Shown piece by piece: positions 375 through 58,857 of a stretch of 64,000 nt of DNA. Under the pieces are notes generated by a model, which was given only the letters and a program-made list of their open reading frames with translations, made no database searches and was not told where the DNA came from. The DNA lies in NCBI GenBank assembly GCA_903813345.2, contig CAIIXF020000011.1, forward strand, positions 5,294,571 through 5,358,570. Direction: 5' to 3'. Position numbers and translations under genes: made by a program. This DNA comes from Owenia fusiformis. Its lineage: Eukaryota > Annelida > Polychaeta > Sabellida > Oweniidae. The stretch's first letter is position 1, and each line of letters begins with the position of its first letter.

Positions 375-3300
375 GTGGTCGAACTGATGTTATTTGCTGT
401 TTACCCATTTGGTTGCACATTACTGTTGTCCTGGGCAACCGCATCTGTGATTATGGTAGAAGCAGCTCCTTACTGTATTATCATATATGGGTAAGCCTAC
501 TTTACTATATTATCATGTATTGGGTAAGCCTACTTTACTGTATTATGATATATGGGTAAGCCTACTTTACTCTATTATCATATATGGGTAAGCCTACTTT
601 ACTGTATTATCATATATGGGTAAGCCTACTATACTGTATTATCATATATGGGTAAACCTACTTTACTATATTATCATATATGGGTAAGCCTACTTTACTG
701 TATCGTGTGTCTTTGAAACAGAAAGATGCGATGAGTGATGGAATAACTTTTCTTAGGAATAAGAAATTTTAATTTCTTCTAAATCAGATGCAATCATAAG
801 TAGATTTTTAACCCATACAGATAAAGCAATGAACAGATGATAAATTCATTCATGGTAAGCAGCACAGAAGCCCTCAGGCTCTACTTTTCTTATTACAATT
901 TTTTTTTCACCCAGAAGGTGTGACATATTGTTACAGTCTCTCAAATTTTTTGTGGATGGTGTTCAGTGGTCAGGGTTCAGCGGTTAGTGTCTCTAACAAA
1001 TGACAGGTGGTTACATTTTCCATGTTAATGCCTTATTTTAATCATGCTAAGGATTGCAGAATCCCTCAAGCTCTTCTTTTTTATTACAGATTTGGTTTCT
1101 TTGTTACAGATTTTTTTCTTTTCTTGTTACAAATTTGGTTTCCTTGTTACAGATTTTTTCCTTTTCTTATGAAAGATTTTTTTCTTTTCTTATTACAGAT
1201 TTTTTCCTTGTCTTGTTACAGATTTTTTTCTTTTCTTATTACAGACTTTCCTTTTCTTGTTACAGATTTTTTTCTTTTCTTGTTACTAATTTTTTCCTTT
1301 TGTTCTTACAGATTTGTTCTACTCCAATTATTTATGACACCAACAATATCTTCATTCTGCAAGACAGATTCCCAGAATGCAGAGACAACGCTCATACTTG
1401 ACCCAATGATAGTTGGGATACTGAGTCTAGTGTACGCTACCATGCCGACAATGGTATATGTGGTGATCACCTTAATATTGGATTTCAGAACCCTCTTTTA
1501 TGCATCAACAATAGTAAGTAAAAATTTCAATACTTACATATTTAAATGATAACTCTTCTTCCTTCATTCGAAATGCTTCTTTAATAACTAAGCTGAGAAT
1601 CATTAACAGAAATTTCGTTAAGTTACGAATTTGTACAGTAAATCATTTGTAACATGGATATAATGACATCACAGTTAGAGATGGATACACAATGGACTTT
1701 ACACATTCTTAACTTTAGGAAGTTTCTGTTAATGAAGGATAGATCCAAGCAAAGCTATTATTGCAGGAGTGACAGAATTTTTTTTATATATATTGTATTT
1801 GTTTATATCAAATTATTACAATAAACACAAATACTTTAGCGGCTTTGTAAGTTACATTATAAGCCACTTTCAGGATGATGATTCACAAAACTAGGTCTGC
1901 AAATGATCTGATAGTAATGATGCTATAAGCATAATAGGTCACCAGACTGCCTGGAGTCCCTCAACACAGTCATAAGAAATTGCTTATCCACTAGTTGGGC
2001 ATTTTGGCATGCACTTAAAAAGTGCATATTTGGCTTTCTAAATTAAATTAAATTGCATGTGTTGTACATGTGTATGCAATGTGTATACAATGTGTATGCT
2101 ATGTGTATGTATTACTTTTATGCTCAATTCACTAACAATTATCTGAGTGGCTGATACTGCCTTCAGCAAAGCCACTACAAGTGTACAATCTTTATGTATT
2201 GTATTTGTAAAATAAATTCTATGAATAAAAAAAAACTGAGTGTGTATGATAAGTGCTCACCTGTCTTAAGCCCTAAACACAACAAAAACATGAATGTAAT
2301 TTCCCATTATTGACCATTAAATAAAAATACAATATTGAAGCCTCACTGTTAGATACCTCCTCATGTCACAAGTCGGTCTGAAAGAATATTGTCATATACC
2401 TGACATTTATCAAACAAAATTGAACGTGTATAACTATAAGTACTCTGGTTTTGAGATTTTGGCACTATTCCTTATTTGCCATTATCTGCTACTCTCTTTG
2501 TGTTTTCCAGATTCATGGCTTGTTCATTGCTGGCTTAAGTGTGTTCCTATCCTCACTGTTACATTTTTTTATTTTATTTTTTTTTTTATTTATATTTGTT
2601 TATTAAAGTCTCACATGTCTCCTGGACATCAAGCCGTTGCCGGCTTAGGAGAGACTATAAAATGTAGTACATTAAAATTCAATTTTTAAAATGGTGTTTA
2701 AAATATAATCAGTTTAGCCATATTAAAATATTAATGTTCTTCTGTGTTTCATTATATTAATCAATGTATTGGCTAAAGTCCTATGTAGGTTGGAGTTCAT
2801 AATGAGAGCATATTGAACTAGATTATTGCACTGATTAAAGTCACTATATAAAATATTCATTTTGTTTATAAGTTCTTGCCTTTGTTGTTCATACATATTG
2901 CAAGATAAAAGAATGTGTCTTTCATCTTCAATTGAGCCTGTCCCACATGTACAAAGTCTGTTATCAATGGGAGTTGGTGGTCTACAGTATCTGCCAGTCT
3001 CTATATGGATTTTCAGTGTCCCTGATCTAAGCTGAGCTATGTGCCTCCTCTGGTTCCTATTGAGCTGGTTTACAACATAACCCTCAGGTTCAACTGCATG
3101 TGTTTTGTGTAGCCTGTAGGTACGTAATTTGTTACCATTCATTGGAGCTTTGCTGTCATCCCAGAGATTATGCATCCATGTGGTGTGATCCGCCGAAATA
3201 AGCAGTTGCTTGAAGGCTTGAAGTTTTGTCTTTACATTAGATATATATGGTTCATTGAAGTATTCTGTTCCAGACGATTCAAATAACAAGGTAGTCTGCA

Positions 3301-6300
3301 TTTCCCATGACTTTGATCGTCCTGGAAAAGTACATGATGATGACCATATAAAGACTTTCCTATTGAGACGATCATGGTCCATGTTAGTTAGCCTACAGAA
3401 CAGACGTGCAATTTCCACACGCTGTTTAGTGTAAATTGATGGCCATGCCATGTCTCCGGTGGTGGCTATGTTTGGTGCACATTTCCCAAGGCATAGAAAA
3501 TAACGACATGCTCTGTTCTGTATGGCATTTATGCATGAATACTGTCTTGTACCCCATATTCCAGCTCCATATAGGAGAATTGGCTGGACCATAGTTTCAA
3601 AAAGTCTTGTGTATACTTTATATGGGAATCCTCCAAAGGATTTAAATTTGGCAATCACCGCTCCAAGAGCTCGGTTGGCAGATTTTGCGAGTATTTTTAC
3701 TGATTCATTATAGTCCAGATGTTCATTAAAATACAGTCCCAGATATTTATAATCATGTGTGTAATCAAGTGTAATTTCACCACATATAAATTGTTTCTGG
3801 CATCGATTTACATTTTTGAGGCGAAAATGCATTATTTTGGTTTTGTCTTTATTAATCTGTACTCTCCACTTTTTGCACCATTCATTTAATATATTAAGTA
3901 GTTGTTGTAGATTATCTGGGCTTGGGGCGATCAAAATAATATCATCTGCATATGCTAGAATACCTATGTTAGTCCCTCCAATGTCAATGCCATATCCAGT
4001 GGTATTGATTTCTGATATAAGGTCATTGAGATATATCGAAAAAAGCGTGGGCGATAGTTTGCACCCCTGTTTCAGACCACAGGTCACGTCAAACCATTCT
4101 GTAGTGCTGCCGTCACTCATCCTTACTGCACACTGAACATCCTTGTACATTGATGTAATTGCAGCATACATACGTCCTTTAACACCCATGTTTGCAAGTT
4201 TGAGCCACATGCAGTCTCTATTGATATTGTCAAACGCACGGCGGGCGTCCACTAGAGAAACGAAGGTAGATTGCTTCCGCAGTTTGCGATTGTTAACTAT
4301 ATCATGTAATGTGTGGATATGATCGATGCAGCTTCTCTTTTGACGAAACCCATTTTGACTATCACATAGTTTTTTGTTAAGTTCTAGCCATTTAGTGAGT
4401 CTACAGTTTAAAATGTCACAATATACTTTAGCTGGGACAGATATAAGTGATATTCCTCGATTGTTCATCGGTACTCTGCTATCTCCAGCTTTAGGTATTG
4501 GCTTAATTACTCCATGGTTCCAAATTGATGGCACACATCCATTTTTAAAACATAGGGAAATTATTGTAAATAGAATTTCAATACATGTAGGGTTTTTTAA
4601 TACCTCCGCTGGGATATTATCTATTCCAGTTGCTTTACGAATTTTAGCTCTTGTAATGCTGTCTATAACTTCCTGTTTTGTAATATCTGAGTTTAAAATT
4701 GGTGTAGTAGTTGAATTCTCATCGAGGTTCATATTGCTCAATTCTGTTTTCACATTAGTCAAGTGAGTTTCATCAAATGTTTGGTTATTAGCATCATTAT
4801 ACATATTGCTGAAGTCAGTTCGCCATTGATGACGCACAGCCTCTGGGTCTGAACTTGTTACATCTCCATTTTCATTGACTAATTCCATTGGTGTAAAATT
4901 AGGCCTATCGTCAGCAATTCCTGTATTTTTATATAATTTCCAGAAAGATGTCTGTTCAGTTGAGTTACACATTTCCAAGAGGTGGGCCTGTTCATTTACT
5001 TGATGTTGATGTTTCGCTTTTCTAAGGGACTTGTCGAACCTACGCCTTGCTGCACAGAAATCTTGACGTAATGTTTTCTTTTGTCGAGATTTGTCACTTA
5101 GCCAGATCCTCTCCCTTTCTTTAGCATAATCCCATTTTTGTTGTAATTCATCTGACCAATATGGTTTGGCACGCTTTTTATGTTTAAATTTGGCATTATT
5201 ATAATTACGTTTGTGGGGCAGTTTTAAGTCCATTTCAGAATGTACAAAGTTCATAAAATTGGAGTAAGCATCATCGATGCCTGAAATATCTTCATCTAGT
5301 GACTGTATTCTATCTAAAGTTGCATGTAGCTGACGCTGTACATCGTCACCCATCATAAAATTGTCTGGTATCACATTAAGCTTAAATTGCATATTTTTGT
5401 TTATTGCACTGTTTACAGCATATGGTGCAGAATTAATTGGTGGCAGGTTTATAGTACTATATATTAATGAGTGGTCAGGTACCTTCACTGGAACGGGTAT
5501 ATCATATTTTGAGATTGCGTCTGTCATTGTTAATACACCGAAATCTGCCCAGCTATTTAGTTGCTCATGGGGAACCACGATATAGTCCACAACTGATTTC
5601 CCTCTTGGTGCTATGAAGGTGAAATCACTTGGACCAACACGTCCATTTATCATGCAGGTGCTGGTGCTAGTTAGAAAATCGATCAGAGTGTCTCCATACG
5701 CATTAGTTGTAAAATCAGAAATATGAGTACGTGGTTGTATATGGTCCACCCCCTCAATGAAATCATTTGATTCCCCACATCTGGAATTGAGGTCACCACA
5801 TATGGCAAAGTGTCCCAAGTTCTGATAGGCATATATTTGGTCTTGAAGACTTTGGTAAAATAATTCTGCATCACTCTGCCTCGAGGAATCCTTTGGTGGA
5901 AGGTAGCAGCTGCATATACATATGGATAGATTTTGATTAGATTTGCATGTGAGTTTAATCCACATTATGTCCTCCACACTTTTATCTAAAATTGCACAAT
6001 CAAAGGTTTCCAACAATTGACGTTTTATTAGCACACCCACACCTCCAGATCCTCTATGCGCATTTTTATTAATATCTTTACGATTATGTCCATACCATTT
6101 ATAAACTCGGCTTATTGGTTCAATATTTAATGTTTCATTTCCTTTCAGCCAAGTTTCACTAATACATATCACATCTAAGCCTGTAGCAGATAAAATATCA
6201 TTTCTAAAACCTGAATTATCATTCACATCCCTGGACCATCCATTAACATTGAATGACCCCACTGTGAACTGCCGGCAACGGCTATTGTCCTAATGTTGGG

Positions 6301-9300
6301 AATTATGACGCCTACCCCTGGCACGTTGGGGCAGATTTACCTGCTGGATTGGTTGGGCTACGCCACGTTGGTTTCTAACAAGTGGAATGTTCACATTTCT
6401 ATCAGCCGACATATTCAAACGCTGGGGAGAATTTTGCCTTTGACGAACTTGTCGGACTGCTGATGATACGGAACTAGAACGTCTGCGCCTACGGTTCCCT
6501 GGGGATGTAACCCTGTTGTTTATATTGGTATGCTGCATTTGCATGGGGTTTTGACGGTCAAGGACTCGACCATTTATAACTGTCAGTTTGTCGTTGGCAC
6601 ACATATTTACGATTTTACGGAGATTCGCTTCTGCAGTAAGTGTCTCACGGGATTTCACTTCATTTATATATATTTTACGGGTGTTGGCACATTTAGATAG
6701 GGCTGCTTTATTTTTCAGTACAAATTCTCGTTCCTCGGTTGAGTGAAATGTCGCTTGTACAACCTTTGAATTAGGGAATCTTCCAACCCTTTTGGCTTGA
6801 AGAGCATATATGTCCAGTAGTTTCATATCATCCTTCAGGATTTTATTAACTTTTGCTAACACATCTTCATTTTGCTCATAGGCAATATTTCGAAATATGA
6901 GATCCAGGCTAATATTGTGCTGAATGTTTTCAGTCAGCATTTTTACACTTGATTTTACTGCATTTAGATCATCCTGCACCTGATCAATGTTTTTCTGACA
7001 TACCTCTTCAGCGATATTACGCATACGCTTTTCTTGGTTGTCCAGCCGTGTTACAATGTCGATTTGAGATTTCTGGATGGTCTCGAACATTTCAATTATG
7101 CGGTCGAAGTTCGGTAATGTAGCGATAGAGGGTTGTTGGATATCTATGCTGTGCTTCAACGTATCCTTGTGTGCCATAACAATGACATCATCTGTATTCT
7201 GTGCCCTGAAAGGTACCCTACCACCCTCGGCTTCCGGGGTAGGTGACTCTCGGGGGACTCCATGCCGAGGGTGTGACCCAGGGCAAGGACTCTCCCGGGA
7301 GGCAGCTTCTACACCTACATATAAAGTCCTTTATGTTTTACAGATCCATGGCTTGTTCATTGCTGGCCTAAGCGTGTTCCTATCCTCACTGTTACATAGT
7401 CGTTTGTGTTTTCCAGATCCACGGCCTGTTCATTGCTGGCCTAAGTGTGTTCCTATCCTCACTATTACATATAAAGTCCTTTGTGTTTTCCAGATTCATG
7501 GCCTGTTCATTGCTGGCCTAAGCGTGGTCCTATCCTCACTGTTACATATAAAGTCCTTTGTGTCTTCCAGATCCGTGGCCTGTTCATTGCTTGCCTAAGC
7601 GTGTTCCTATCCTCACTATTACATATAAAGTCCTTTGTGTTTTCCAGATTCATGGTCTGTTCATTGCTGGCCTAAGCGTGGTCCTATCCTCACTGTTACA
7701 TATAAAGTCCTTTGTGTCTTCCAGATCCATGGCCTGTTCATTGCTTGCCTAAGCGTGTTCCTATCCTCACTATTACATATAAAGTCCTTTGTGTTTTCCA
7801 GATTCATGGCCTGTTCATTGCTGGCCTAAGTGTGTTCCTATCCTCACTGTTACATATAAAGTCCTTTGTGTTTTACAGATTCATGGCCTGTTCATTGCTG
7901 GCCTAAGCGTGTTCCTATCCTCACTATTACATATAAAGTCGTTTGTGTTTTCCAGATCCACGGCCTGTTCATTGCTGGCCTAAGTGTGTTCCTATCCTCA
8001 CTGTTACATATAAAGTCCTTTGTGTTTTCCAGATTCATGGCCTGTTCATTGCTGGCCTAAGCGTGTTCCTATCCTCACTTTTACATATAAAGTCCTTTGT
8101 GTTTTCCAGATCCACGGCCTGTTCATTGCTGGCCTAAGTGTGTTCCTATCCTCACTGTTACATATAAAGTCCTTTGTGTTTTACAGATTCATGGCTTGTT
8201 CATTGCTGGCCTAAGTGTGTTCCTATCCTCACTGTTACATATAAAGTCCTTTGTGTTTTCCAGATTCATGGCCCGTTCATTGCTAGCCTAAGCGTGGTCC
8301 TATCCTCACTGTTACATATAAAGTCCTTTGTGTTTTCCAGATTCATGGCCTGTTCATTGCTGGCCTAAGCGTGTTCCTATCCTCACTTTTACATATAAAG
8401 TCCTTTGTGTTTTCCAGATTCATGGCCTGTTCATTGCTGGCCTAAGCGTGTTCCTATCCTCACTTTTACATATAAAGTCCTTTGTGTTTTCCAGATTCAT
8501 GGCCTGTTCATTGCTGGCCTAAGTGTGTTCCTATCCTCACTGTTACATATAAAGTCCTTCCTGGAGGCATCAGGTATTATAATATTTTTCAAACTCATCT
8601 ATTTCTCATACATGTATATCAGTTTCCAATCCTCAACTAAATCAAATCTTTCTGTATTGCATTTCGACCCAATTTAAAAAAGCAAATTTGTGTATTTTTA
8701 CCTTTAATGACACCTTAAGCTTTATTAAAGAAGCAAATCTAAGTTGATTGCAATCTTGCTATACAAGATATGTATAGAGCTGAAATAAAGAAAGAGAATG
8801 TTCTGCCAACTAATCCTTGTTTGATCCCAAATATTTGTTTGTATATGTTTTAAATGTATAAATGAATAAACACAAAGAGCTTGCGTGTCTCAAACTCACA
8901 TGTTTTGCATTTTAGTGAAGCAAATAAACTCGATTCACTAGTTTTAGAGAATTGGGAAACAAAGTTATTTAATCAGCACATTTACAAAAGCTTAAAGTCA
9001 ATATGTTGGAATGCCACAAAATGTGAATTACATTTAAATCCCATTTAAAAAAACAAATCTGTATTTCAGGTATTGAAGAAAAATACATTAAATACATACG
9101 TTGGTGTGCTGCCGTGGTTTGTCTCAGTTTGTTAGGACCTGTGCTTCTATACCAGGGGACCCCTTCAGAAGTGCTACACCTAATGCCTCTAGCCGCAGCC
9201 TTACATACTATATATGGTTACGTTGCTGGCAGAAAAAATAATGATGTAAGAATTAGAGAATATACTCGTTATTGACTTTATTAAAGAATTTAAGCCCACT

Positions 9301-12300
9301 GGCCTGAGGGGTCAAGGAATTGTGGAGAATTTGTTTTATTGTGTTAATCTTTCAATGAGGGCGTGAGCATATAAGATGCAAGTGCATTATATCACAACAT
9401 GCAAATGCACAATATGCAAATGCAAGAAATGATGTAAAGAGTGAACATTTTATTGTTTGAACTAGCACTTCGTATTTTAGTTTGAAAGATGCACTAGGTC
9501 TCAAAGATAATATTTTGTAATTGCAGATTCCACTGGTTGTTATGGTGGTTGTCATGACAATATTTTACATTTACTTGTTTTCCATATTGCCATGGCAACT
9601 CAAGTATCCTTTCAAAATAATTACATATAAAGTGGAGATATTTCTATTTTTTACCAAAAGGCTGTTTGCAAAAGATAAAACTTATTTTAAAAAATGCTGC
9701 ATTTTTGTGTCACATTGTACCAGTATTGTCTATGTCAATAATCTGCAAAAGGCCACAAAGTTGTAATTTTAAAAAGTTAGTTCCTTGACAATGTGAGTCA
9801 GTATTTGAATGACAACGTGGGAGGTGTTCAATACATACATATGGTAATGTGTATAAGTGTTCTACTTTGTGTATTAGCTGTCATCGTTGCCGTAGTTGCG
9901 GAGCCAGAGTTGTTTGGAATCGTCATCACCTTTCAGTCATTTTGTAAGTTTTGAGTTTGCACAAAATAAAAGTTGAGATTATTAAAGAGAGGACTGTTAA
10001 TTGATGTTACATAAGCATGAAATAGTTCAGATTTAGAAATATTTTGTTAACATTATTGCAGTATTATAAAAGTCATTTTCAAAATATTAACTAATGCTTA
10101 TTTCAGGAGTGGAAGACACCACTGGTACTTTTTGCCAGTATATTTCCAATTTATGATTAAAAGGCTGTAAAGTAACAATTTCCTATAACCGTCTTTTTAT
10201 ATTTACAGCAATGGTTATGTGTGAGAAGTTCTTATTAGCTGCAGGGGTGTATTCCCCAACACTTCTAACAATAATACTGGTGTTTGCAGCATACTTCCTT
10301 ATAAGGTATGATTCCAAATGGGGTTTCGTATGCTCCCGCTTTTCATAGTTTACCCCTTTAGTAAAATTAGCTTTTGACGTGTGAGTGGGAGGATGAGGCT
10401 TTAATTACCACGAAGGTTGAGTGACTTTTTCACATCAGCCCTCAAAGGCAGAATCACATCTATAGTATGTATTTTATGGTTCATCCAAAGGGGTTCGATA
10501 CATGTACATGAATCAATTCCATGTCATAGTGTTAAACATTTTACATGAGCTCATTGTTGACAATTTTATTTGCAGACTATTTCACGCCAATAAGATTTAC
10601 GAGAAAGATGCACTGATGTCTCTCTCCCTCCATCTTACAAAGGTTCCTGACATCATCGATGCCGTCGTTGACAATAAAGATGTCTCCACTGCATCGTTTA
10701 CCTATCGTTTATTTTCCACATTGATCTTAGCTGCAATTGTGAGTCGTGTGGTTGTCTTTGAAAACAGAGATGTTATACCAAACATACAGGTAAAGCATAC
10801 ACGTATGTTATGTGCAGTATGGTTCACTGACTTCCCGAAGCAATGGAATAAAATTGCTCAAATTCGGGATTCAAAAATAGCCTTGGTCCCAGTTGTAGGC
10901 CCATTCTGTCATAGCTATGATTGTTACCACTTTTGGTCATCAGTACAAGCACTTAAAAAGATGGATAAAACTGGAAACCTTACTCACTACAATAGTATTT
11001 CAGACTTGTATTTGTATGCTTTGCACTCTAATACCTCGATACATCATATAGGTTTTAATCCATTGCTTGTTTATCGGATCTATCATTTACATCCTGTATT
11101 TGGATTATTTTAAATGATGTGAAGATACTATCAGTGACAATTTGATTGTTTTTGTACTTTTAGGCATTGATGTACTTTGTTGCGCTAGGGGTGTCCATTA
11201 TGTTTAACACATTCTCTATCCTTCCTGAGATTTGGTGGTTCGTCATGCGTGACTTTCCTAGCCTCATTGATGTTATAGGTAAGGTACATGTATAGAAATT
11301 GTGACATATCTTTGCTATAGGTACCATAAGGTGGAACCTGTGACACCCATAGCCAAAAGTTCTTTCAAATCATACAGTTTCTCATTGTTTTGAGCACCTG
11401 TCAAGTGATATGTGGCAAAAATTGTCAAATTTGATCCCCCTGGATTTTTGAAAAGCCTGAGCTCCCCCTCTTGGTGAAAAATTGCTACGGGTCTGCAGTA
11501 GTGGTACTAAATGTCATATCAATTTTTTTGTTTTATTTCCAGCCCTTGGCTTCACCATCTGGGGCTTGCTATTTCTTAAGCTTTCCTACTGCCATGTGAT
11601 ACCAGGAAATGACACTAAACAACTAAGCCCGATGTTGCTATGCTATGGGGTCCTCATGATGCTCATTCATCCTCCTTTGGAATACACATGGTAAGTCAAG
11701 ACCCCTTATATTAAATTCGTTATTGTACATGCTGGTAAGCTTTGACAAAAATTTGCCTAATATGGTATTGCTAAATAGTTGTCAACTAACAAGGATTGAT
11801 CAAATTAGGCCAATAAGTCACCAAATACAGGTATACTCTATCAGTTTCTCAAATGGTACGAGACGATATTTAATCAAAATTTGCTTCATTTATTTTTCAG
11901 GGAAGCAACCCAAAAATGGCTGATTTTATTGAGCATCACAATCAGTCTCCCAACCCTGCCAATTATACGCACGATACGCCATCCATTGCCCTTATTTGGT
12001 CTCACAGCAGTCGCTGGGTTCCCTGTTGGATTCTTTGTCACTGATATTGTAAGCATGAATTGCGAAAAATTGTTTGCACTTGTATTTTTTAACAATTTGT
12101 ACTATTTTTGTATTATTAAGTTTTATTTCGAGGATATTTTGATTCAATTATAGAGCTTATTTGCATTTTAATTTCTGTGTAAAACACTGTCAAATGTAGA
12201 GCGTATTGAAAATCATACTACATGCACTTGTATGCAAGACTTACCCTTGCAAATGATAAGATAAGAAAGGTCATTTCAAGACTTTACATATCTGAATTTC

Positions 12301-14337
12301 TATTATTAAAAAAGTAAAATGAAAATAACCCTCGAAAAATAAATACTTATATATATATATCCTAGACTCATAAAATGTTTACTCAATATTAAATGAATAT
12401 ATTTTGAATAATTTGATTTTAGATTTATTCTCTGCTAAAAGATGGCAGTGGTGTTGGTGTGTTGGCAAACATGTTCATAGGATTAAATCTCACCACAGTG
12501 TTTTTCCTGACAGCATCTCTGTATCAGATAGACCACATTACAACAGTCCTTCGCAAACGCTTGTATTTTATGTGAGTATGAGGGGGATTTACATGTACAT
12601 GTGTTTGTCATTGCAGGTCAACGTGTGTCTATTTATTTGTCTTTGCAGGTCAATGTGTGTCTATTTATTTGTCATTGCAGGTCAATGTGTGTCTATTTAT
12701 TTGTCATTGCAGGTCAATGTGTGTCTATTTATTTGTCATTGCAGGTCAATGTGTGCCCATTTATTTGTCAAAACCTGATTTCAATCTTAAGAGGGGATGA
12801 ACTTTTTGTTGTTTTATGATTTCATCTGTTTCACAAGTTTATTTTGGAGGTTGCCAGATACCTTTAAAAATCAAATGATTTCTTGAAGAAAATCAGAACT
12901 GTTTGACTTGAAGAAATGATGTGAGCAAAAATAATATGTAAAATTCTATTTTCAAAACTTTAAAGACAAGTTTAAAGTTTTGAAAATACAATTTTACGTA
13001 TTGTCTTTATCTCATCTAATGTCTTCACATTGCATGACATGTGCTAGATCATAACCAGAACATTGTATTTGGTTTCTTTCAATTTTTAGATTGACCACTC
13101 TCGGCATATGCAGTGTAGTTCTCTTCATCCATGATGCGACGTTCCTAGATTTGAGGACGGAGCATGGTAGCCTCAAAATGGAGTTCATCGATATTCCTGC
13201 CAGTAAAATGGCGTTGTTAAACACATTGGTGGCAGCTGCGGGATTGAAATTGTTTTCGATTAAAAATAAGGTAAATTAGTCACCATTACATTTACAAGTG
13301 TCTAACAGTTATTACGTAGAAGTACAAGGGTAAAACACATGTGATTCGATTGTAATTTAATATAAAATTTATTTTTATTCCTAATATAAGCAGTGTTGAA
13401 TTGTATTTTAAGCCTTCTAATCTTCCCAAAACAGCGGGTGGTGTACCTTATATAGACAGGAAGTTACCATTGCTAGGCAACGCTTGTGCAGTAATAGCGT
13501 ATTTGCTGGCATGCCAGGCATGTCCCATACAACAGTGGGAATTCTGGGTAAGTTACCTGGCAACATAAAATGTTTTGACAAAATTAGAAATATACCAGAA
13601 CTCAATAAGAAAGTTGATGGTGCTACCATTTACAAAGACCAGAGTTGAGGTTTGACACATAAATACATAAGGGTTATGTACTGGGAGGTTTAAAATACAG
13701 GGTTTATCCCAAGGGAAATACCCTATAACTGAAACCTCCCAGTACATAACCCTTATCAGTTTTAGTCTTTGATAAGATATAAGCATGTCGTCTTTACTTC
13801 AAAAAGAATTAAAAATTCAAATATAATTTAATTTAAAATTTATTTAATTTAAATAATATAATATAATTAAATGATAATTCTTATATACTTTTTTCCATCA
13901 TGTTTTTCTAGTATTGTGGATGTACCCTCTTGTTGCTCCTTCTACAGAAAGACCACTATTTATTACACATCCTGTCACCTAGCAACCAGGCAGCACCAGC
14001 TGTTTCCATGACAACACTAATGCTCCTTTTCACAACATTGATTTCAAATCAATTATGGACTACAGAAAGTGGGTATACAATGTTTAGAGGCATTGTGGAG
14101 ATAATAATCGAAATAATTGCTTTACCTAATTTATTAACGTTTCTCTATCTCTTTTGGAAAGATAGCACAAACACTTTAGATGGGCTCGAGCAAATAGCTG
14201 TGTTTACGATGCCGTTAAATGGGTTGCTATTCCTGTTTGGGACATCTTATAATAGCTGGGTGTTAGCTGGAATCAGTCTTGTTTGTGGAATATGGACAAC
14301 AATGATAAGGATACCACATTTACGCAATACCATCTAA
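375..14337 (+). CDS. Uncharacterised large multi-pass membrane protein (3' part of gene, 15 exons visible)
   Basis: I do not recognise the family. Exons read: 375-490, 1312-1513, 8495-8573, 9070-9245, 9527-9603, 9798-9943, 10209-10305, 10576-10789, 11164-11278, 11543-11690, 11901-12048, 12423-12571, 13090-13270, 13413-13547 and 13912-14337 (TAA). The phases join exactly, giving 2409 nt (802 residues plus stop). The first exon is entered from an upstream exon outside the window, so the N-terminus is missing. Nearly every exon carries one or two hydrophobic stretches of about 20 residues, so well over ten membrane passes are likely. The main polar stretch is around exon 8 (LFHANKIYEKDALMS and following), probably a loop. 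One intron (9604-9797) is U12-type. The last exon codes for 141 residues and ends PHLRNTI. Several junctions sit in tandem arrays described separately. A transporter or an ER/Golgi multi-pass protein would fit, but nothing seen decides this. Confidence 0.8.
470..705 (+). repeat. 32-bp tandem array copied from an exon/5' splice site
   Basis: About eight copies of a 32-bp unit with core ATTATCATATATGGGTAAGC. The first copy is the end of the exon at 375-490 plus its donor (exon ...ATATGG, then GTAAGC). Each later copy repeats exon end plus donor, so about eight competing 5' splice sites lie in a row. Only the first keeps the phase needed by the next exon, because 32 is not a multiple of three. 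Confidence 0.85.
949..1033 (+). repeat. Interspersed GGTGGT-rich repeat, copy 1
   Basis: A stretch of about 85 bp ending AACAAATGACAGGTGGT followed by TACATTTTCCATGTTAATG. Related copies lie near 35111, 49528, 58168 and 59973. All share the end motif ACAAATGACAGGTGGTGACA and a G/T-rich body. No coding potential; probably a small non-autonomous element. Confidence 0.55.
1080..1316 (+). repeat. About 20-bp tandem array carrying repeated 3' splice sites
   Basis: Roughly ten degenerate copies of TTTCTTTTCTTGTTACAGAT run up to the real acceptor before the exon at 1312. Each unit holds a pyrimidine tract, a CAG and the first few bases of the exon (ATTT). The array therefore looks grown from the acceptor junction. 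Confidence 0.8.
2504..2564 (+). repeat. Orphan left copy of the 77-bp acceptor/exon repeat
   Basis: One unit (TTTTCCAG followed by ATTCATGGCTTGTTCATTGC and so on) stops exactly where the LINE's A-rich tail begins. Its continuation, ATAAAGTCC, resumes at 7321 on the far side of the LINE. It is therefore the left end of the array at 7316-8573, split by the insertion. Base 2560-2564 (TACAT) is the left target-site duplication. Confidence 0.85.
2723..6262 (-). CDS. LINE ORF2: endonuclease plus reverse transcriptase
   Basis: About 1180 residues. The N-terminal apurinic-like endonuclease shows SFNVNGWS, ICISETWL, GGVGVLI, CGDLNSR and PDHSLI. The central reverse transcriptase shows NNRGISLI, QNGFRQKRS, LVDARRAFD, GLKQGCKLSPTLF and the catalytic YADD (codons at 3941-3952), followed by INKDKTKIMHF and YKYLGL. 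The C-terminus has a Cys/His cluster, LCTCGTGSIEDERHILLSC, as in many LINEs. There is no ATG before the endonuclease: the open frame begins directly after the ORF1 stop codon in the same frame, and the first usable-looking codon is GTG at 6262. The protein would nick target DNA and copy the element RNA by target-primed reverse transcription. The frame has no internal stop. Confidence 0.93.
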   Translation of the reverse strand: MGSFNVNGWSRDVNDNSGFRNDILSATGLDVICISETWLKGNETLNIEPISRVYKWYGHNRKDINKNAHRGSGGVGVLIKRQLLETFDCAILDKSVEDIMWIKLTCKSNQNLSICICSCYLPPKDSSRQSDAELFYQSLQDQIYAYQNLGHFAICGDLNSRCGESNDFIEGVDHIQPRTHISDFTTNAYGDTLIDFLTSTSTCMINGRVGPSDFTFIAPRGKSVVDYIVVPHEQLNSWADFGVLTMTDAISKYDIPVPVKVPDHSLIYSTINLPPINSAPYAVNSAINKNMQFKLNVIPDNFMMGDDVQRQLHATLDRIQSLDEDISGIDDAYSNFMNFVHSEMDLKLPHKRNYNNAKFKHKKRAKPYWSDELQQKWDYAKERERIWLSDKSRQKKTLRQDFCAARRRFDKSLRKAKHQHQVNEQAHLLEMCNSTEQTSFWKLYKNTGIADDRPNFTPMELVNENGDVTSSDPEAVRHQWRTDFSNMYNDANNQTFDETHLTNVKTELSNMNLDENSTTTPILNSDITKQEVIDSITRAKIRKATGIDNIPAEVLKNPTCIEILFTIISLCFKNGCVPSIWNHGVIKPIPKAGDSRVPMNNRGISLISVPAKVYCDILNCRLTKWLELNKKLCDSQNGFRQKRSCIDHIHTLHDIVNNRKLRKQSTFVSLVDARRAFDNINRDCMWLKLANMGVKGRMYAAITSMYKDVQCAVRMSDGSTTEWFDVTCGLKQGCKLSPTLFSIYLNDLISEINTTGYGIDIGGTNIGILAYADDIILIAPSPDNLQQLLNILNEWCKKWRVQINKDKTKIMHFRLKNVNRCQKQFICGEITLDYTHDYKYLGLYFNEHLDYNESVKILAKSANRALGAVIAKFKSFGGFPYKVYTRLFETMVQPILLYGAGIWGTRQYSCINAIQNRACRYFLCLGKCAPNIATTGDMAWPSIYTKQRVEIARLFCRLTNMDHDRLNRKVFIWSSSCTFPGRSKSWEMQTTLLFESSGTEYFNEPYISNVKTKLQAFKQLLISADHTTWMHNLWDDSKAPMNGNKLRTYRLHKTHAVEPEGYVVNQLNRNQRRHIAQLRSGTLKIHIETGRYCRPPTPIDNRLCTCGTGSIEDERHILLSCNMYEQQRQELINKMNILYSDFNQCNNLVQYALIMNSNLHRTLANTLINIMKHRRTLIF
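6290..7177 (-). CDS. LINE ORF1: RNA-binding chaperone-like protein
   Basis: 295 residues. Residues of about 25-90 are a predicted coiled coil (heptad-like hydrophobics with many Q, E, K and N). The middle (about 90-200; NISLDLIFRNIAY to KIYINEV) resembles the RRM-like core of LINE ORF1 proteins. The C-terminus is basic (RRRRR then SSSV, several RxR), suited to nucleic acid binding. It ends with TAG at 6292-6290, and ORF2 continues in the same frame right after. By family knowledge it would coat the element RNA in a cytoplasmic particle. The start ATG at 7177 follows a short GC-rich leader. Confidence 0.85.
   Translation of the reverse strand: MAHKDTLKHSIDIQQPSIATLPNFDRIIEMFETIQKSQIDIVTRLDNQEKRMRNIAEEVCQKNIDQVQDDLNAVKSSVKMLTENIQHNISLDLIFRNIAYEQNEDVLAKVNKILKDDMKLLDIYALQAKRVGRFPNSKVVQATFHSTEEREFVLKNKAALSKCANTRKIYINEVKSRETLTAEANLRKIVNMCANDKLTVINGRVLDRQNPMQMQHTNINNRVTSPGNRRRRRSSSVSSAVRQVRQRQNSPQRLNMSADRNVNIPLVRNQRGVAQPIQQVNLPQRARGRRHNSQH
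7316..8573 (+). repeat. 77-bp tandem array (16 units) containing 3' splice site and exon
   Basis: Sixteen units, spaced 77 bp except the first interval of about 72 bp. Each comprises intron end (GTGTTTTCCAG), the exon body starting ATTCATGGCCTGTTCATTGC, and TACATATAAAGTCC. Only the last unit (exon 8495-8573) runs on into CTGGAGGCATCAG and a donor, GTATTA. Units are highly similar (a few substitutions each), so expansion is recent. Each unit translates to the same membrane segment (HGLFIAGLSVFLSSLLHIKS), but the 77-bp period shifts the frame, so only the last acceptor gives an open exon. Confidence 0.95.
9604..9797 (+). other. U12-type (minor spliceosome) intron
   Basis: The donor is GTATCCTTT, matching the minor-spliceosome 5' consensus. 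TTCCTTGAC at 9781-9789 matches the U12 branch-point consensus, and the acceptor GAG lies 9 nt after the branch A. Using this acceptor (exon from 9798) keeps the frame open through QYLNDNVGG and into the following membrane segment. The next AG (9801) leads to an immediate stop, and an acceptor before 9880 gives the wrong phase. Confidence 0.85.
12601..12770 (+). repeat. 36-bp tandem array with AG|GT cores
   Basis: Nearly five copies of a 36-bp unit containing TTTGTCATTGCAGGTCAATG, just inside the intron after the exon at 12423-12571. Every copy joins an acceptor-like pyrimidine stretch plus CAG to GTCAAT, so each looks like a zero-length exon. The unit does not include exon sequence. Confidence 0.85.
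13669..13754. repeat. Small perfect hairpin
   Basis: AAGGGTTATGTACTGGGAGG and its reverse complement face each other across about 40 bp, which themselves contain a smaller inverted repeat (GGGTTTATCCC, AGGGAAATACCCT). The hairpin lies in the last intron of the membrane-protein gene and has the form of a short foldback element. Confidence 0.75.
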
Positions 14338-33048: not shown

Positions 33049-36000
33049 TTAGCAACACCCTCCAGATTTTGGTTGTTCTACTTGGTCGTCATCCACGACC
33101 ATAACACTACGCCTCGTAGAGTTGCCGCCTCGAGTTGGGCCTGTGGGTTTGGTTAAATCATCACCAGATTTGTCCATCATTGCTGAAAGGATTAAAAGGC
33201 AATTTTGAGGTTACACTGTAAAGCAAAATGTCTATAGTATGATTGCCCTATCTTTTCAAGGCATTCTCCATTTTAATATTAACCTCTTGACTACCCAGGA
33301 TGACTAGATTTCTCGTCACCTCAGAAATGACCTTGAAACCCAGAGGGCCGAGAAAGTCTGTCTTAAAATTTTTCACAAAAACTGCTCTTATTTGAACAAT
33401 TTTCTTCCAATTTACACAAAAATTGTTTTAAAACGTGTAGAAATGATCTCTGCCATCTAATTTTACTAAGTTGAGCATCTTAAGTTGTATAGGTATATAG
33501 TAAATTGTCAAAAGGTGGCAAAAATGAAAAAATTCTCTGGTTTCAACCGATTTTAGAGCCTTGGATTCAAGAGGTTAAAATCATCTGTGCCCTTAATTAC
33601 TTTCAACTTAAATATGCTGACTTTTTTCATACAAAAGAGGATATAATACTACAATGGGACCTTTCATTATTTCATTTCAAACAATGTGCGAAAATTATTT
33701 TCTGTACATCAATGAGATGTGCATGAGAATTTGCACTTTTGATACATAAAAAAAGCAAAATATTTTAATTTTTTCTTACTGAACTAAAAATTTGTATTTT
33801 TGCTGTATGTTCAACTTTACAAATGTAATAATCAGTCTCGTTCAAGCCAATGTGACCCCATATGCCTCTCCACCATTGGGTTGAAGTAAACAATGAGATA
33901 TCCAGAGAGTTGTTGCAAGACTAAAATATTGCTTTATTGATACTCACATTTGCTTATATCTAAGAAAAGTTCTTCTATTCCTTTGTTGAGCTTAGCTGAT
34001 GTGTGAAAATGTTTGGCTCCAACTGAGGCTGCATATCTGAAACATATATGTAAAACCCATAAACATGAGAGAAAAGGGTATCCTTTCTCCAAAGAGGATA
34101 TTACTATACAGAATGTTCTACCCTGGACAAAACAAGGAGATGAACATTTTGGTAAATATTTCCCAAATTGGTCAATGCTTGATCAAAGAAGGGATCTTGG
34201 TTTCTAATTCTCCTTGCATTTTTCAATCCCTTCATAACATTCATACTGGATTTTGTAAGATTCAAATAATATACTACATATAATCTATAAATACATTTTC
34301 TAAATATTATCAAACATAAAGGAGTATTCCACCCAAGTATTTTCTGTTTTTAATCAATTTCAATTCTTTAATAATCATCAAAAATACAATGCATTCAATA
34401 CACAGTGCTTACAGGCAAGTCATCAGTACAAGTTTGAACAAGGCAATAATAAGCAAATATTTCATTCTATGGAGGGCAATACCTGTTCATCTTTCAATGA
34501 TTTTTGCAGCATGTATTGCCCGCAGCCCGAAGGGCGAGGGAAATACATGCTGCAAAAATCATTGAAAGTGCAACAGGTATTGCCCGAACATAGAATGAAA
34601 TATTTGTTTTATTATATCATTGCTAGACATTCACTTTGTATGTGCCTATTGAGTCCATGACGAATACTTTGCAGACTGTAACTCTTGTAATATTCCCCAT
34701 CCTTCGTTCGCAGTTCAAGAAAAAAATCCTCTAAAATTCCATCCAGAACGATTTTATCGATAGATTTAACGTCTATTTCGATATCTTTTTCGTCCACATA
34801 ACACTTGAAACTGTTCAAAGACGTTTCCGTTGATTTAATGGTGTTTTTAGAATGCACATCCCTCAAGATGTCGTTCTTTTCATCGGAATTCAGACTTTTA
34901 AATTTTTTTCCGTCTGCCATTTTAATGCACGTCACAACCGTACTGGACGAAACGGGACGATTCAGAATTCCCGGGCGGGCAATACGCCGGGCAATACGTC
35001 TTTTATAATTCAAAAATTAAGGGAGGTGTGAAATACGCTTTGGTATTTTTGATCACATGGTACTGAATTAGCCAATCAAATGACACAAATTCTAGCAATG
35101 ATATAATAACATGCAAAATGTCACCACCTGCCATCTGTTAAAGATCCCGAACTCTGAACACCAAACACAGCGCCCTAACCATCGAACACCATCCATAAAA
35201 AAATGGAGACTAAAAAAAAAAAATGTCACCATCATGAAAAAATGCTTTAAGTACTCACGATTCCGCCTCTTGAACAGTGACGTGTCTATCTTTTTCTAAA
35301 TCTATTTTGTTTCCAGCTATGCATAAACATATATCATTTCCCAACATTTTCTTTAGTTCTTTAACCCAGTTTTTAACCTGGAAAAAAAAAGGTTCACCAA
35401 AATGTACACTTTTCACGCATAGGCTTAATTTTAAAATGATCTTAAATAGTTGATTTTATTTTATTCCGTTCAACTCTATTTGAGCTATATTTTCTTCAGA
35501 TTTCTGGGTTAGATCATGGGGTTTCAAGATCATACAAATTGTTTACATATTTATAATCATTAAATTATTATAAAACAAACATTTCAAAATATTTCATCTT
35601 ATGACTTCAATAAAAAATGTTGCGTAAATAACAAAATTACGTATTCTTAGTTTTGACAAAAATATATTACACGCACCCTATGAAATGAGTCTTCGTCTGT
35701 GATGTCATAAACTAAAATTGCACCATTACTGTCTCTGTAATAAATAGGACCTAATGCGTGGAATCTTTCTTGGCCAGCTGTATCCTAAAAAGTAGAAAAC
35801 AAACAAATAAATCATTACATTTCATATTTCATTACATTTCATAAATCATTACATTTCACATTAAATTACATAGTGGGTGTAATGTTACAACTACAGTAAA
35901 ATTTTAAATGTTAGGAACTACTTTGAATTTAAAAAATAAGCAATCAAATGATTATATTGCAACAGTATATAATAAAATAGAAACATATGTACTTGTCCTA

Positions 36001-39000
36001 ACTTTTGTATATTTCAGATAGTTATGTATAATGTGCAGTAGAGCTGTGGCCTTTTGTAATTTAGGGAGTTTCAGCCATGTTAATTTTTCAGAAAATAACA
36101 TGGCAGAGAAGCATCAAAATATAAGAGGGCACAGACATGATAGCTAAACTACAAAACAAACTAAAATATACAAAAGTTAGGACATGTATAAATGTTTCTA
36201 TTTTTACATATACTGCTTCAATATCGTCCTTTGATTGCTTATTTTTTAAATTCAAAGTAGTTACTAACATTTAAAATTTAACTGTAGTTACTACTAGTTC
36301 AAGTAAAGTTCAACTGTTTGAACCATAGAACTAATTCGAGATGTTTAATGCAGAGTGCTATATAGTGGCTGAATAAATATGAAGCAAATGCATACCTGTA
36401 ACATTTCAAATCTCCCTTAAGATGATTTCTTTTGTTTGTACAGTAAAACCTGTCTTAATGAACACCTCTCTCTAGTGAACACTGTGTTTAGTGAACAGCA
36501 CTTCAAAACACATTTTATACATTAACGCCTGTATAAAATACCATCTCGGGAGAAAACACCTACCTACAGCGAACACTTTTTGTGGCTCGATAGGTGTTCA
36601 TTTCATACAGGTTTTACTATTTGTTTTTTAAATTTCCTCAAGATATTATTTTCATGGTTCTCTCAATGTTGACAAAATAAATATAATCTATAAAAAAAAC
36701 TGTCAACTTACCCATATTGCTAAATTTACTCTTTTACCATTGATGTTCAGTTTTTTGTTCAGGAACGATGCCTGAAAAGCAGAAAAAAAAATGTTTTCAC
36801 TCGAGGGATTCATTAGGCAGGTCATTTAATCCATAACAAATAAATAGTACCATGGGAGCTGGACTCACATGGTGTTGCTCAAAAGTGAATGATGGCTAAA
36901 ATGGCAGAAAATGAAAAAAAAAAGATATAATTTTTTGCTGATTTTTGTAACAAAATTATTTCATACAACTACTCTTTACAGTGACAAGGGTTTTTTACAA
37001 TGCAGGACACCTGAAATTATTTGTAAAGCTAGGAAATGGACCAAAGGTGAATTTCAAGTGACAAAAATGGCAACCATTTTGAAAACAAGAACACAAATGT
37101 GTACAAAATGTCCCTACCAAGTGGTGATACCGTGAAATGGTTATCCTGAAAATGAGTAGACAAGACTTTACCAACACAATTTGAGGATGGAAAATCCAAA
37201 GTGGCCACCTTAAAATTTACCTAGAATGCCAAAAATTTAGCCAGTTCTAGATTTTCATACTAAGAGCCACCCCTGAAAATATGAAATTGATCCGTCACAC
37301 AGTTAACCAGAAAACATGTAAACAAGACTTTACAAACAAGATTTCAGGATGGAAAATCCAAAATGGCTGCCTTGACATTTACCCAGAATGTCAAAAAACT
37401 AATCTGTTTGTAGATTTTCATACTAAGAATCATCCCTGAAAATATGAAATTGATCTACCAAACGGTTCACCTGAAAACGGGTAGACAAGACTTTACTGAC
37501 AAGATTTTAGGACAGAAAATCCAAAATGGCTGCCTTAACATTTACGCAGAATGCAAAAAAACTAATCAGATGTAGATCTTCATACGAAGAATCATCCCTG
37601 AAAATTTGAAATTGATCTATCAAACCGTTCACCTAAAAACGCGTAAACAAGACTTTACAGGCAAGATTTTAAGACGGAAAATCCAAAATGGCTGCCTTAA
37701 CATTTACCCTGAATGCATAAAAACTAATCAATTGTAGATTTTCATACTAAGAATCATTCCTGAAAATTTGAAATTGATCTACCAAACAGTTCACCTGAAA
37801 ACGAGTAGACAAGACTTTACAGACAAGATTTTAGGACGGAAAATCCAAAATGGCTGCCTTGACATTTACCCAGAATGCCAAAAAACTAATGAGATCTAGA
37901 TTTTTATACTAAGAATCATTCCTGAAAATTTGAAATTGATCCACCAAACGGTTCACCTGAAAACGCGCAGACAAGACTTCACAGACAAGATTTTAGGACC
38001 GAAAAATCCAAAATGGCCGACAATTAAAAAGTCCTTATGAGTTTTTGCTGATTTCTTTTTACAAAATTATCACATATAACTACTGTTAACAATAAAGTAG
38101 GCTTTAAAAACAAAGTACATCTGAAATTATTTATAAAGCTACTAAATAGTTAAAGTATGAAAACTCAAAAACACCATTCAATATGATACAAAGTATTATC
38201 ACGCGCTAACTTTTCTTAAGACATTCAAAATGGCTGACATGATTGAGCTAGCAGGTCCAAAACCTAATCAGATCTAGAATGAAGTGAGCTGAACAAGATG
38301 TTAAAGTTTTAAAAGCAACTGTGAAGCAGTTTTTCTTAAAGTTTGCAGACAAGGATTTTAGCATTTGACTTCAAAATGGCCGACAGGAAGTAGGTTTCGA
38401 GTTAAATTTTTTTCATCCACATCTATAGGCACTCATAAGTTATCCCTGAAAATTTGAAGGTGATATCTGTAGCGGTTTTGGAGAAAACTCCCGGACGTAC
38501 GGACGGACGGACAGACGGACGGACGGACAGACGGACAAACGGACGGACTGACAGTCGGACGCGCCTAGGCCGACAATATGGCCCCACACAATGTGGTGGG
38601 GACATAATAGGTGAACTTAAGAACCAGGAGTCATAGGGGAGTTATCTGTGCGAAATTTCGGTTTAGTCAGGGGGGAGGGTGCGTCGTGCGATTGTGGCAT
38701 AAAAAAGCCCTTTATTTCATATACATGTAACTCCTTAAAGGCAAAGAAACGTTGCCATGAATTTTACAATTTTTCAGGTGTGAAGAATAAGCGTCACATT
38801 CAGCTTAAATCAAATAATATAATCCTGCACTGTATTAAGAGTGTAAGATGTTGGAAGCAATCTATCTGTAGGCCTATACAATCATGTACATTTACATGTA
38901 ATGTATCTCTATCACTTCATTCCCTTGATGTAACTTTGTAGGACAACTACAATTAATGATGTTGGACCCTTAGCTAATCCCAAGTTTGATTCTCCATTAA

Positions 39001-41268
39001 TGAAAAAGGTAGACCCAAAAACTCCTTGTATGCCCACCATTGTTTAGGCTTATTTCTAAATTTCCAAATCCAAAAGCAGGATGAAACAAGAGATCATTTA
39101 AAAAAAATGAAGGCGATGTTTGCAGTGTTGTAATGAATTGTATTGATAAATAGGGATGCTTTCTTTTAACGCGGTTGTAATTTACTGAACGGCAAAAGTA
39201 GAAAAAAATCTGAACATTTTGAACTGATTAAGATCTTTAAATTGTGAAGGTCTGAGTACCTGGACCTCTTAGAAAACATCCAAACATATCAAAAAGTGAA
39301 GATGGGTCAATTTGATTCTCATTCTCCGAAGATATTTATAAAATAGTTAAATGTTCAGAGTTTTTTTTAATGCTGTAAATTGTTCACAATTATAAATCGA
39401 GAAGTCGCTCGATTTCTTTCGTATTTAGGAAATCATGTTGCCGAAAATCAGTGCACCCTTTTCACGGAGTTGTAATAAAATGAGCGTGTGTTACCGTGTG
39501 TCTACTTAGCAGTTTGTTCTATGTCATCCCTCCTGCAAGGTTACATTGTGGAACTCAGCCAAACACGACACTGAACTTAGGCAGTATTCTGGGGTTATAA
39601 AATCTTAATCGTAAAAATTTCCCATTTCTTCTTCTTCTGCAGCCCCTTGGAGAGTTCCGGAATAGAACAAAGTAGCGAACGTTGCGATCTTTCAACTTTA
39701 GTTCGTTGTTTTTCACCACTTTATGTGTTGTGTTTTCATTAGGAGGCGGTTTTATTTGAATGCATCATTTCAGGTCTTTATGAATCAATAGATCAATAAG
39801 CAGACTAAAAATACAATTTAGCAGTTTCTTTCATTGCGTACTGGGCCTGTTAGGCATGAAATACAATTTAGCAGTTTTGTTTGTTGCGTAATTGGGCCTT
39901 CTATAATCAGTAGCAAATGCTCGGAAAACATTTTCCAAAATATTTACTTCCGTTTTCCTTGAAGACATGGTTGGGTGACACGTCATTAAGTCACATGATC
40001 AATACAGTAACTAGTCACGTGATCAGACACATGTCAGGTGTCAGTCACGTGAGCTTTCAAAATGGACGACCTAAATTTCCAAAAATTCTGCTAAGATCAA
40101 CATCGACATGTTGTTGCCTTCATTGTCGTGTTTGGCTGCGTTCCACAATGTAACCTAGCAGGAGGGATGACATAGAACAAACTGCTAAGTAGACACACGG
40201 TAACATTTCATTATCTCGTTATTTTCACCAGATGAACTTATGCCAAGAATTTCTACTCAGTCTTTAAAAACCTTTCGACCCTACAACTTGCTTGCCAAAG
40301 AAATCTTGACACCCAGTAAGTCGTAGGGTCAAACAGTCGTAGGAATGGTTTTTAGTACATTCAATAGTCTAGTTGTAAATATTTGCTAAAACTTGCTTGC
40401 CTCAAACACCCTCATCCAAGCGTGTCCCGGTTAAAGAGAAATTCACACTTTTGTAAAAAACAATTGAAGAACAGCATAATAGAAAGTCAAATACAAAATT
40501 GATTTGCGCCCAAAATAGTTTGGGTAATGATTCCCGTCACTACCATGCATTTGTCCCCAAAGCAAGGTTCCTGGTGGACAGTGGTAGCAGGCGTACATAT
40601 TTCCTGCAAAGGGAGAAAGGTATGCTTTTCATATGTTTTTAAATCACCTTGTAACAAAATCAATATTGTGTCTAGCTTGCAGAATTGTTTAAAATGAATA
40701 TAAATATGTTAGACTCGCGCACCCATCCTTCGTAAAATTCGATTTACTCGCGCACACGTCATTTTGCGAGACACAAAAGTGCGAATTTCTCTTTAACCGG
40801 GACACGCTTGGATGAGATATTTGGTGAATTAGATCGTCTTCAGACATTGATGGTACGGGACAAGTTTCACAGAGATACAAAATCTTAAAACATGTAAAAA
40901 GTGTGATTACAAGCCTCAAGCGAAAGAAAATGCGAATCACTCGCGCACACGTCATCCATGAAGTCACGTGACAGACTATACCCAGGGTGTCAAATTTTGA
41001 ATGACATTGGCTGACAGAAATTGCCTAATTTTACAAAATATCCAACCTTTCCAAAAACAATTTTCAGATGATTTCAGAAATCTGAACAACAACATTATTC
41101 GCATATGACAACGAAAAACGATTTAGATTGACTCACCTGTAATGTTGTGAGATGTTTATCGTTGAATTTGTTTTCTACGTATCTGAGAACCAGTGATGTT
41201 TTTCCAACGCAACCCTCTCCAAGAAGCACAACTTTGAAGGAGAAATTGCGGCCCCCGCCGGCAGCCAT
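33049..41268 (-). CDS. rab21: Rab21 small GTPase
   Basis: Exons 41268-41137, 36771-36712, 35784-35677, 35377-35259, 34036-33948 and 33182-33049 join in phase to 213 aa. The human protein is 225 aa; the difference is mainly a shorter glycine/alanine stretch at the N-terminus. P-loop GEGCVGKT is at 17-24, WDTAGQE at 64-70 (catalytic Q69), GNKIDL at 122-127 and TSAK at 152-155. It ends GGCC, with cysteines 212 and 213 for double geranylgeranylation. The G-domain is close to vertebrate RAB21 ([38 protein letters not shown]). Rab21 acts on early endosomes in cargo and integrin traffic. All key residues are intact. Its start ATG is 387 bp from the divergent TBC1D15 ATG. Introns carry many repeat insertions, mostly in intron 1 (36772-41136). 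Confidence 0.97.
33279..33578. mobile_element. TTAA MITE, family TTAACCTCTTGA, copy 1
   Basis: Begins TTAACCTCTTGACTACCCAG and ends CAAGAGGTTAA. It is the reverse-orientation relative of the copy at 55246-55546 (shared GAAACCAGAGAATTTTT and TACACAAAAATTGTTTTAAA stretches). TTAA at both ends suggests piggyBac-type transposition. It lies between exons 6 and 5 of rab21. Confidence 0.8.
34447..34610. repeat. Hairpin element in rab21 intron 4
   Basis: Arms of about 70 bp (AAATATTTCATTCTATG..., GGGCAATACCTGTT..., AATGATTTTTGCAGCATGTA) face their reverse complements across a GC-rich loop (GCAGCCCGAAGGGC). No ORF. Form and loop resemble the hairpin at 52570-52739, though the arms differ. Confidence 0.8.
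34612..35108 (-). mobile_element. Small TIR element with a Crypton-like recombinase N-terminal fragment
   Basis: Ends TATATCATTGCTAGA and TCTAGCAATGATATA are inverted. On the - strand the element encodes 102 residues from the ATG at 34920 ([10 protein letters not shown]) to a stop next to the left end (34612); an in-frame ATG at 35013 would add 31 arginine-rich residues. The stretch [14 protein letters not shown] to [14 protein letters not shown] matches the pattern of the N-terminal DNA-binding part of Crypton tyrosine recombinases and their ZMYM/QRICH1 relatives (by pattern memory, not a search). The catalytic part is absent, so the copy is an internally deleted, non-autonomous derivative. 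Confidence 0.6.
35111..35196 (-). repeat. Interspersed GGTGGT-rich repeat, copy 2
   Basis: The reverse complement of the element described at 949-1033: starts ATGCAAAATGTCACCACCTG and ends in ACCATCCAT. It abuts the Crypton-like element. Confidence 0.6.
35885..36297. repeat. 410-bp palindrome in rab21 intron 2
   Basis: Arms of about 130 bp (35885-36014 and 36163-36297) share GTTACAACTACAG..., GAATTTAAAAAATAAGCAAT and GTCCTAACTTTTGTATATTT in inverted order, around 150 bp of unique sequence. No ORF or splice signals of note. Confidence 0.8.
36439..36620. mobile_element. MITE with CAGTAAAACCTGT ends, copy 1
   Basis: Left TACAGTAAAACCTGTCTTAA and right ACAGGTTTTACTA are inverted; inner GTGAACAC and GTGTTCAT motifs repeat. 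The CAGT(T)AAAACCT end is common in mariner-like MITEs. A sibling lies at 47512-47693. Confidence 0.7.
37127..38035. repeat. About 162-bp satellite-like tandem array in rab21 intron 1
   Basis: Five to six units of about 160-164 bp, each with GACAAGACTTTACAGACAAG, GGAAAATCCAAAATGGC and CTGAAAATTTGAAATTGATC. The last unit runs into diverged relatives (AAAATGGC at 38228 and 38375) and then the GGAC block. Unit order and spacing are regular, and divergence between units is moderate. Confidence 0.85.
38440..38612. repeat. GGAC microsatellite block with palindromic tail
   Basis: CTGAAAATTTGAAGGTGATA, then a run of GGACGGAC/GGACAGAC (about 38496-38562), then CCCCACACAATGTGGTGGGG, a hairpin. The lead-in repeats part of the 162-bp unit upstream, so both may belong to one interspersed element. 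ORFs across the block are artefacts. Confidence 0.7.
39491..40203. mobile_element. 713-bp TIR element with about 100-bp inverted ends
   Basis: TTACCGTGTGTCTACTTAGC and its reverse complement start nearly identical ends of about 100 bp each (they include ATGTCATCCCTCCTGC and GCCAAACACGACA). The interior has no transposase. It is a non-autonomous DNA transposon in rab21 intron 1. Confidence 0.8.
40411..40816. mobile_element. 406-bp TIR element
   Basis: CTCATCCAAGCGTGTCCCGG with TTAAAGAGAAATTC forms an inverted end of about 45 bp, mirrored at 40773-40816. The interior has a TCGCGCAC motif repeated and no ORF. Confidence 0.75.
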
Positions 41269-58801: not shown

Positions 58802-58857
58802 TATGAGAAAAAAGGATTTTCAAAAACTGACCACTCTTAGTATGTTTAACAGGGATG

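Follow-up and report, generated by a model that had tools for sequence, protein, structure and literature searches.

Known repeats at exon–intron borders

Minisatellites whose units run across a splice border have been reported from lancelets under the name 'mirage' minisatellites, in the globin genes BflGb6 and BflGb9, where Adh3 and other loci are also mentioned (PMC3087553), and in PGBD5, where Adh and troponin C are cited (PMC3902484). Further marks of the kind are normal splicing that goes on undisturbed and an array length that is unstable somatically or from one individual to another. In human genes lying within segmental duplications, variable internal tandem repeats with units of about 30 bp occur at exon–intron boundaries; they are reported to alter transcripts, with RNA support for alternative transcripts, and are credited with the possible creation of novel introns (PMC2812944). 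A related proposal, that of Rogers as discussed in PMC3087553, is the gain of introns by tandem duplication of AG/GT proto-splice sites.

The locus described here resembles the lancelet cases in that its units span a donor or an acceptor border, both kinds of border are affected, and many copies keep their AG or GT (here 7/7 GT, and 9/11 and 17/17 AG; in lancelets many, not all); an earlier note on this DNA had named the lancelet minisatellites as the closest precedent, an apt choice on the evidence of PMC3087553 and PMC3902484. Unlike the lancelet cases, up to four arrays are found here in one gene, which is known from the sequence of one assembly. The reports that use the name 'mirage' come from cephalochordates and the present host is probably no lancelet, a difference in the range of reports and not in any structural criterion. 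All 40 hits of one pattern fell on C1-C12 among the 525 contigs, where lancelets have 19 or 20 chromosomes; a search for GFP-family genes, which are numerous in lancelets, gave no hit, and neither did its control. The repeats of human duplicated genes are likewise minisatellites at exon–intron boundaries, so that border minisatellites are not confined to lancelets; while the human repeats are reported to alter transcripts (PMC2812944), the reading frame here would demand that most internal sites be ignored. With intron gain at proto-splice sites the locus has in common that splice signals within a gene are duplicated in tandem, but no new intron is visible here and each unit holds one border. 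In mutually exclusive tandem exons, such as those of muscle myosin heavy chain, both splice sites are present in each copy; they too are tandem copies of exon sequence, whereas the units here carry one border. A literature search covering titles and the beginnings of abstracts, with most subscription journals outside its scope, found no such arrays reported outside chordates.

The host gene and its arrays

The window, that is, the whole stretch of DNA analysed, comprises 64,000 nucleotides at C11:5294571-5358570 (genome 498 Mb in 525 contigs; GC content about 34%). A plus-strand gene, the product of which is a multi-pass membrane protein, hosts all three arrays of the window, as delimited by Tandem Repeats Finder; an ab initio prediction places its start outside the window, about 11 kb upstream, and its stop lies near 14337. 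In window numbering, negative upstream of the window, its features are the following.

About -1937 to -1506 (L012:8063-8494), upstream of the window: fourth array, acceptor; TTTCAG units before the exon at -1508 to -1440 (L012:8492-8560)
375 to 490, plus strand: exon of the multi-pass membrane protein, its open frame joined in frame to 1312-1513; array 1 takes in its final 21 nt
470 to 703, plus strand: array 1, donor; 32-bp unit, 7.3 copies
1074 to 1320, plus strand: array 2, acceptor; unit of about 20/23 bp, up to 9.9 copies, in several overlapping Tandem Repeats Finder rows
1312 to 1513, plus strand: exon after arrays 1 and 2, placed by frame continuity
2499 to 2564, plus strand: first copy of the 77-bp unit, with 12 nt of intron end and 54 of the 65 exonic nt, cut by a LINE
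2565 to 7315, minus strand: LINE in the first 77-bp copy, with two open ORFs; edges read by eye
2723 to 6262, minus strand: LINE ORF2, 1179 aa, endonuclease and reverse transcriptase
6290 to 7177, minus strand: LINE ORF1, 295 aa
7316 to 8559, plus strand: array 3, acceptor and exon; 77-bp unit, 16.2 copies, 93% matches
8495 to 8573, plus strand: coding copy of the 77-bp-array exon, the sole copy followed by the exon's donor
9070 to 14337, plus strand: remaining host-gene exons to the TAA stop, the boundaries of one or two uncertain

The reading frame of the host gene is unbroken across its exons until the stop, and searches with the 886-residue assembled part of the protein yielded no family in Pfam (E up to 1) and no relative in the PDB (E up to 10). 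Further along the window, a Ras-family gene (about 33049-41269, minus strand) adjoins a TBC/Rab-binding-domain gene (about 42173-58802, plus strand) on the opposite strand; they resemble RAB21 and TBC1D15, respectively, a pair that is adjacent in human as well.

A single 821-bp intron (491-1311) separates exons 375-490 and 1312-1513, whose reading frame continues from one to the other, and arrays 1 and 2 are therefore the two ends of one intron, of which they make up 445 bases (213 + 232). A predicted 54-bp exon at about 915-968, which would split these two arrays between introns, was rejected for its poor donor and is also disfavoured by the continuous hydrophobic segment that the direct join of the flanking exons yields, a rejection that falls short of proof. 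The earlier note had described tandem arrays grown from splice junctions at three consecutive introns: the arrays are real by Tandem Repeats Finder and their units span splice borders by the GT and AG counts, but the frame join leaves two consecutive introns, not three, to carry the three arrays of the window.

The unit of array 1 consists of the last 21 nt of the exon and 11 nt of intron with the donor, in line with its earlier description as a 32-bp array copying an exon end and donor; GT is kept in 7/7 copies and GTAAG in 6/7. Array 2, also rightly described before as an array of about 20 bp copying the acceptor of the next exon, has AG at the end of 9/11 acceptor copies, the last of which (1312) is the coding acceptor and opens that exon. 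In array 3 the unit joins 12 nt of intron end, with the acceptor, to the first 65 nt of exon 8495-8573; it does not include the donor of that exon. All 17 acceptor copies of the 77-bp unit keep AG, both the single copy at 2511 and the 16 that run from 7344 to 8495; the acceptors of array 3 are 77 bp apart except for one spacing of 73, an evenness which indicates that none was skipped, and the last of them (8495) is the coding one. All nine matches found for the 77-bp unit lie at the host-gene locus. The reading of 2504-8573 as one 77-bp array of acceptor and exon is thus borne out for the unit but not for the single array, which is made of one copy, the LINE (2565-7315) and then 16 acceptor copies.

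The LINE is flanked on both sides by TACAT (2560-2564 and 7316-7320), and part of it, 301 bp long, recurs on C9 at 100% identity and on C6 at 97%. Since near-identical copies exist elsewhere and the first 77-bp copy is cut, the insertion is young and later than the first 77-bp duplication.

The fourth array holds seven TTTCAG sites, the coding one included, and similar words recur in a related stretch at -4960 to -4776. At L012:5430-7803 (about -4570 to -2197) there is a transposon-like insertion in which one coding-like segment is present as inverted copies; it sits between two stretches of similar acceptor-bearing repeat, and the acceptor-bearing array around it seems also to have been split by an insertion. 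Another array, at 12604-12770 (32-bp unit, 5.2 copies, acceptor-like units TTTGTCATTGCAG), was not counted because it lies inside an intron and not at a border, by eye about 30 bp past a donor and about 320 bp ahead of the next acceptor. Two more arrays were seen in this part of the contig: one of 45-bp units (9.9 copies, 93% matches) at 60776-61220, and one of 42-bp units (112 copies), which contains long open frames and lies just past the downstream end of the window, at L013:3616-8342 (67616-72342 in window numbering).

Site choice and the reading frame

In array 1, splicing from any of the six later donors would bring a stop at the border (6/6), and in array 3 a stop would likewise follow if splicing went to any one of the 15 acceptors at 7344-8418 that precede the last and the remainder were retained (15/15, a count that excludes the 2511 copy). 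Array 2 is less strict: a stop follows from 7/10 earlier positions, or 5/8 among the positions with AG, and three earlier positions, all with AG, leave the frame open as far as it was followed. The copies look equal to the working site and position must therefore decide among them; read in this way, normal mRNA would depend on the first donor and in most cases on the last acceptor.

The exon parts of array 3 hold 14 distinct variants, nine synonymous and five changing (P 0.019), as counted by script in a test weighted for transitions and transversions and with the indel-bearing tail of the 7344 copy omitted. This synonymous lean departs from a simple neutral expectation, on a small number of variants. 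Recurrent exchange with the working exon, or copying from it, would account for the lean, and so would selection. Selection might favour the additional copies, either as reserve splice sites or as a store of exon copies that exchange with the working exon; this idea draws on the lean and on the intact sites in most copies. It is nonetheless quite unlikely, as the copies of array 3 are so alike (93% matches) that intact sites are expected anyway, most internal sites would truncate the protein, and the same lean also results when the working exon is copied repeatedly, with no selection on the array. A broader proposal, in which the donor-less exon copies form a reservoir exchanging with the working exon, so that noncoding copies come to show coding constraint and preserve earlier synonymous states of the exon, and in which border minisatellites are general to minisatellite-rich genomes, also outside chordates, is unlikely but conceivable.

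The same arrangement in other genes

Arrays in which an exon ends inside the repeat while coding sequence lies outside it were sought by a scan of 114 merged arrays, 98 of them from 264 kb and 16 from 40 kb (304 kb in all), arrays within 420 bp of block ends being omitted. Four arrays passed: two belong to the host gene, while CAND1 and a myosin gene contribute one each; the scan overlooked arrays 2 and 3 of the host gene, and its sensitivity is thus limited. The CAND1 block on C1 had been picked by position alone and four myosin regions for exon density from a family search, neither being selected for repeats. The two arrays outside the host gene are:

C1:11238782-11239118 (L017:8782-9118): CAND1 donor array; 63-bp unit, about 5.5 copies
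L038:6155-6320: myosin V-like donor array; 41-bp unit, four near-identical copies, GTATG in 4/4

In CAND1, GT is kept at 4/6 copy ends examined, and an alignment of the C-terminal 149 residues to human CAND1 runs through the border of the array (the query had one wrong residue at the split codon); the myosin V-like protein also continues across its donor array. At C1a 35979-36142 a repeat of two copies, containing an acceptor-like word, looked coding at first sight and was set aside once its sequence was inspected. In the family search, C9:37986009-37994334 (minus strand) gave twelve matches in tandem, all to one stretch of the myosin head (about 18-84 of Pfam Myosin_head), the pattern expected of a large alternative-exon cluster in one gene.

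The six arrays examined comprise three at donors (host gene, CAND1 and myosin V-like) and three at acceptors, all in the host gene, and in each of them the unit holds one border, never both borders of an exon. These further genes also bear on the suspicion of an assembly or gene-model artefact, with arrays collapsed or expanded or with exons that are not real, which could feed on a host gene known from one assembly and having neither a Pfam nor a PDB relative at the cut-offs used. Such an artefact is very unlikely, given the frame that passes through the exons to the stop and the same arrangement in CAND1, aligned to its human counterpart across the border, and in the myosin V-like gene.

Arrays and splice junctions compared

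The earlier note had suggested that something about junctions seeds duplication, and had proposed a test of whether repeats overlap junctions more than shuffled controls do. The sample for this comparison was 304 kb, of which 114 kb surrounds the host-gene arrays, with exon calls mostly ab initio from a simple exon predictor; 182 junctions were kept after removal of predicted exons in transposons or long arrays and of one junction wholly inside a C1a array (20394). Arrays were rotated within their blocks 2000 times, a junction being counted when an array covers both of its sides. Arrays cover 6/182 junctions, against a rotation mean of 16.1 (sd 5.7), and 99% of rotations reach 6 or more; in the host gene alone, 4/31 junctions lie in arrays against 3.3 expected (P 0.40). 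The coverage profile, over the 183 junctions present before the last removal, has no border peak, with 3.8% at the border against 4.4-7.8% at 40-1000 bp into the intron, and 1.6% at 40-60 bp into the exon. Arrays cover 10.5% of the host gene, and local repeat load accounts for their clustering there. In the sampled 304 kb, arrays are thus no commoner at junctions than chance, and the seeding is not supported; for this sample, that is the outcome which the earlier note had named, for the whole genome, as refuting its proposal.

Genome-wide word counts were consistent with this. The acceptor word TTTCAGRTT occurs 34,150 times and gives 389 pairs within the gap pattern (1.14%), while its mirror word occurs 16,268 times and gives 76 pairs (0.47%). 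Three further words of the same composition, with their mirrors, give 136, 51, 406, 490, 254 and 231 pairs, or 0.45-2.37% per occurrence with occurrences estimated by a Markov model on the 304 kb. The per-occurrence rate of TTTCAGRTT is mid-range among the words of its composition and not exceptional, and its excess over the mirror word was rejected as a junction signal once occurrences had been counted and the six other words had proved to spread equally. Donor-word pairs number 403 against 630 for the mirror word, as raw pairs and not per occurrence. These word tests would overlook a modest excess, because the words differ several-fold among themselves.

An active seeding of tandem duplication by splice junctions, through R-loops, paused polymerase or bound snRNPs, would agree with four arrays in one gene, with the 389 pairs against 76 and with the precedent in several lancelet genes. 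It is very unlikely in view of the junction counts, which lie under the rotation mean in the sample and close to expectation in the host gene, of the coverage profile that lacks a peak, and of the 51-490 pairs yielded by the six other words of the same composition.

Probable chance duplication, tolerated by splicing

The arrays are probably best regarded as border-spanning minisatellites of the 'mirage' type, arisen as chance duplications that splicing tolerates and not seeded by junctions. Short tandem duplications would arise throughout the noncoding DNA of a minisatellite-rich genome, and some would by chance take in the end of an exon together with the donor, or the start of one together with the acceptor. 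A border duplication of this sort may be nearly neutral, normal mRNA persisting if the spliceosome takes the donor nearest the 5' end or the acceptor nearest the 3' end; within the 77-bp array, the last copy alone could be defined as an exon because only this copy has the exon's donor. The array might afterwards expand and homogenise as any minisatellite does. A unit with both borders would add an exon, which would explain why each unit has one border.

The arrays thus probably belong to the known 'mirage' kind, in a new host group, and suggest that border-spanning minisatellites are not peculiar to lancelets or to human duplicated genes. They offer a simple null, in which the share of ordinary minisatellites that happens to fall on borders would survive through the choice of the outermost site. 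The locus may also serve as a natural test of how a choice is made among near-identical donors (array 1) and near-identical acceptors (arrays 2 and 3).
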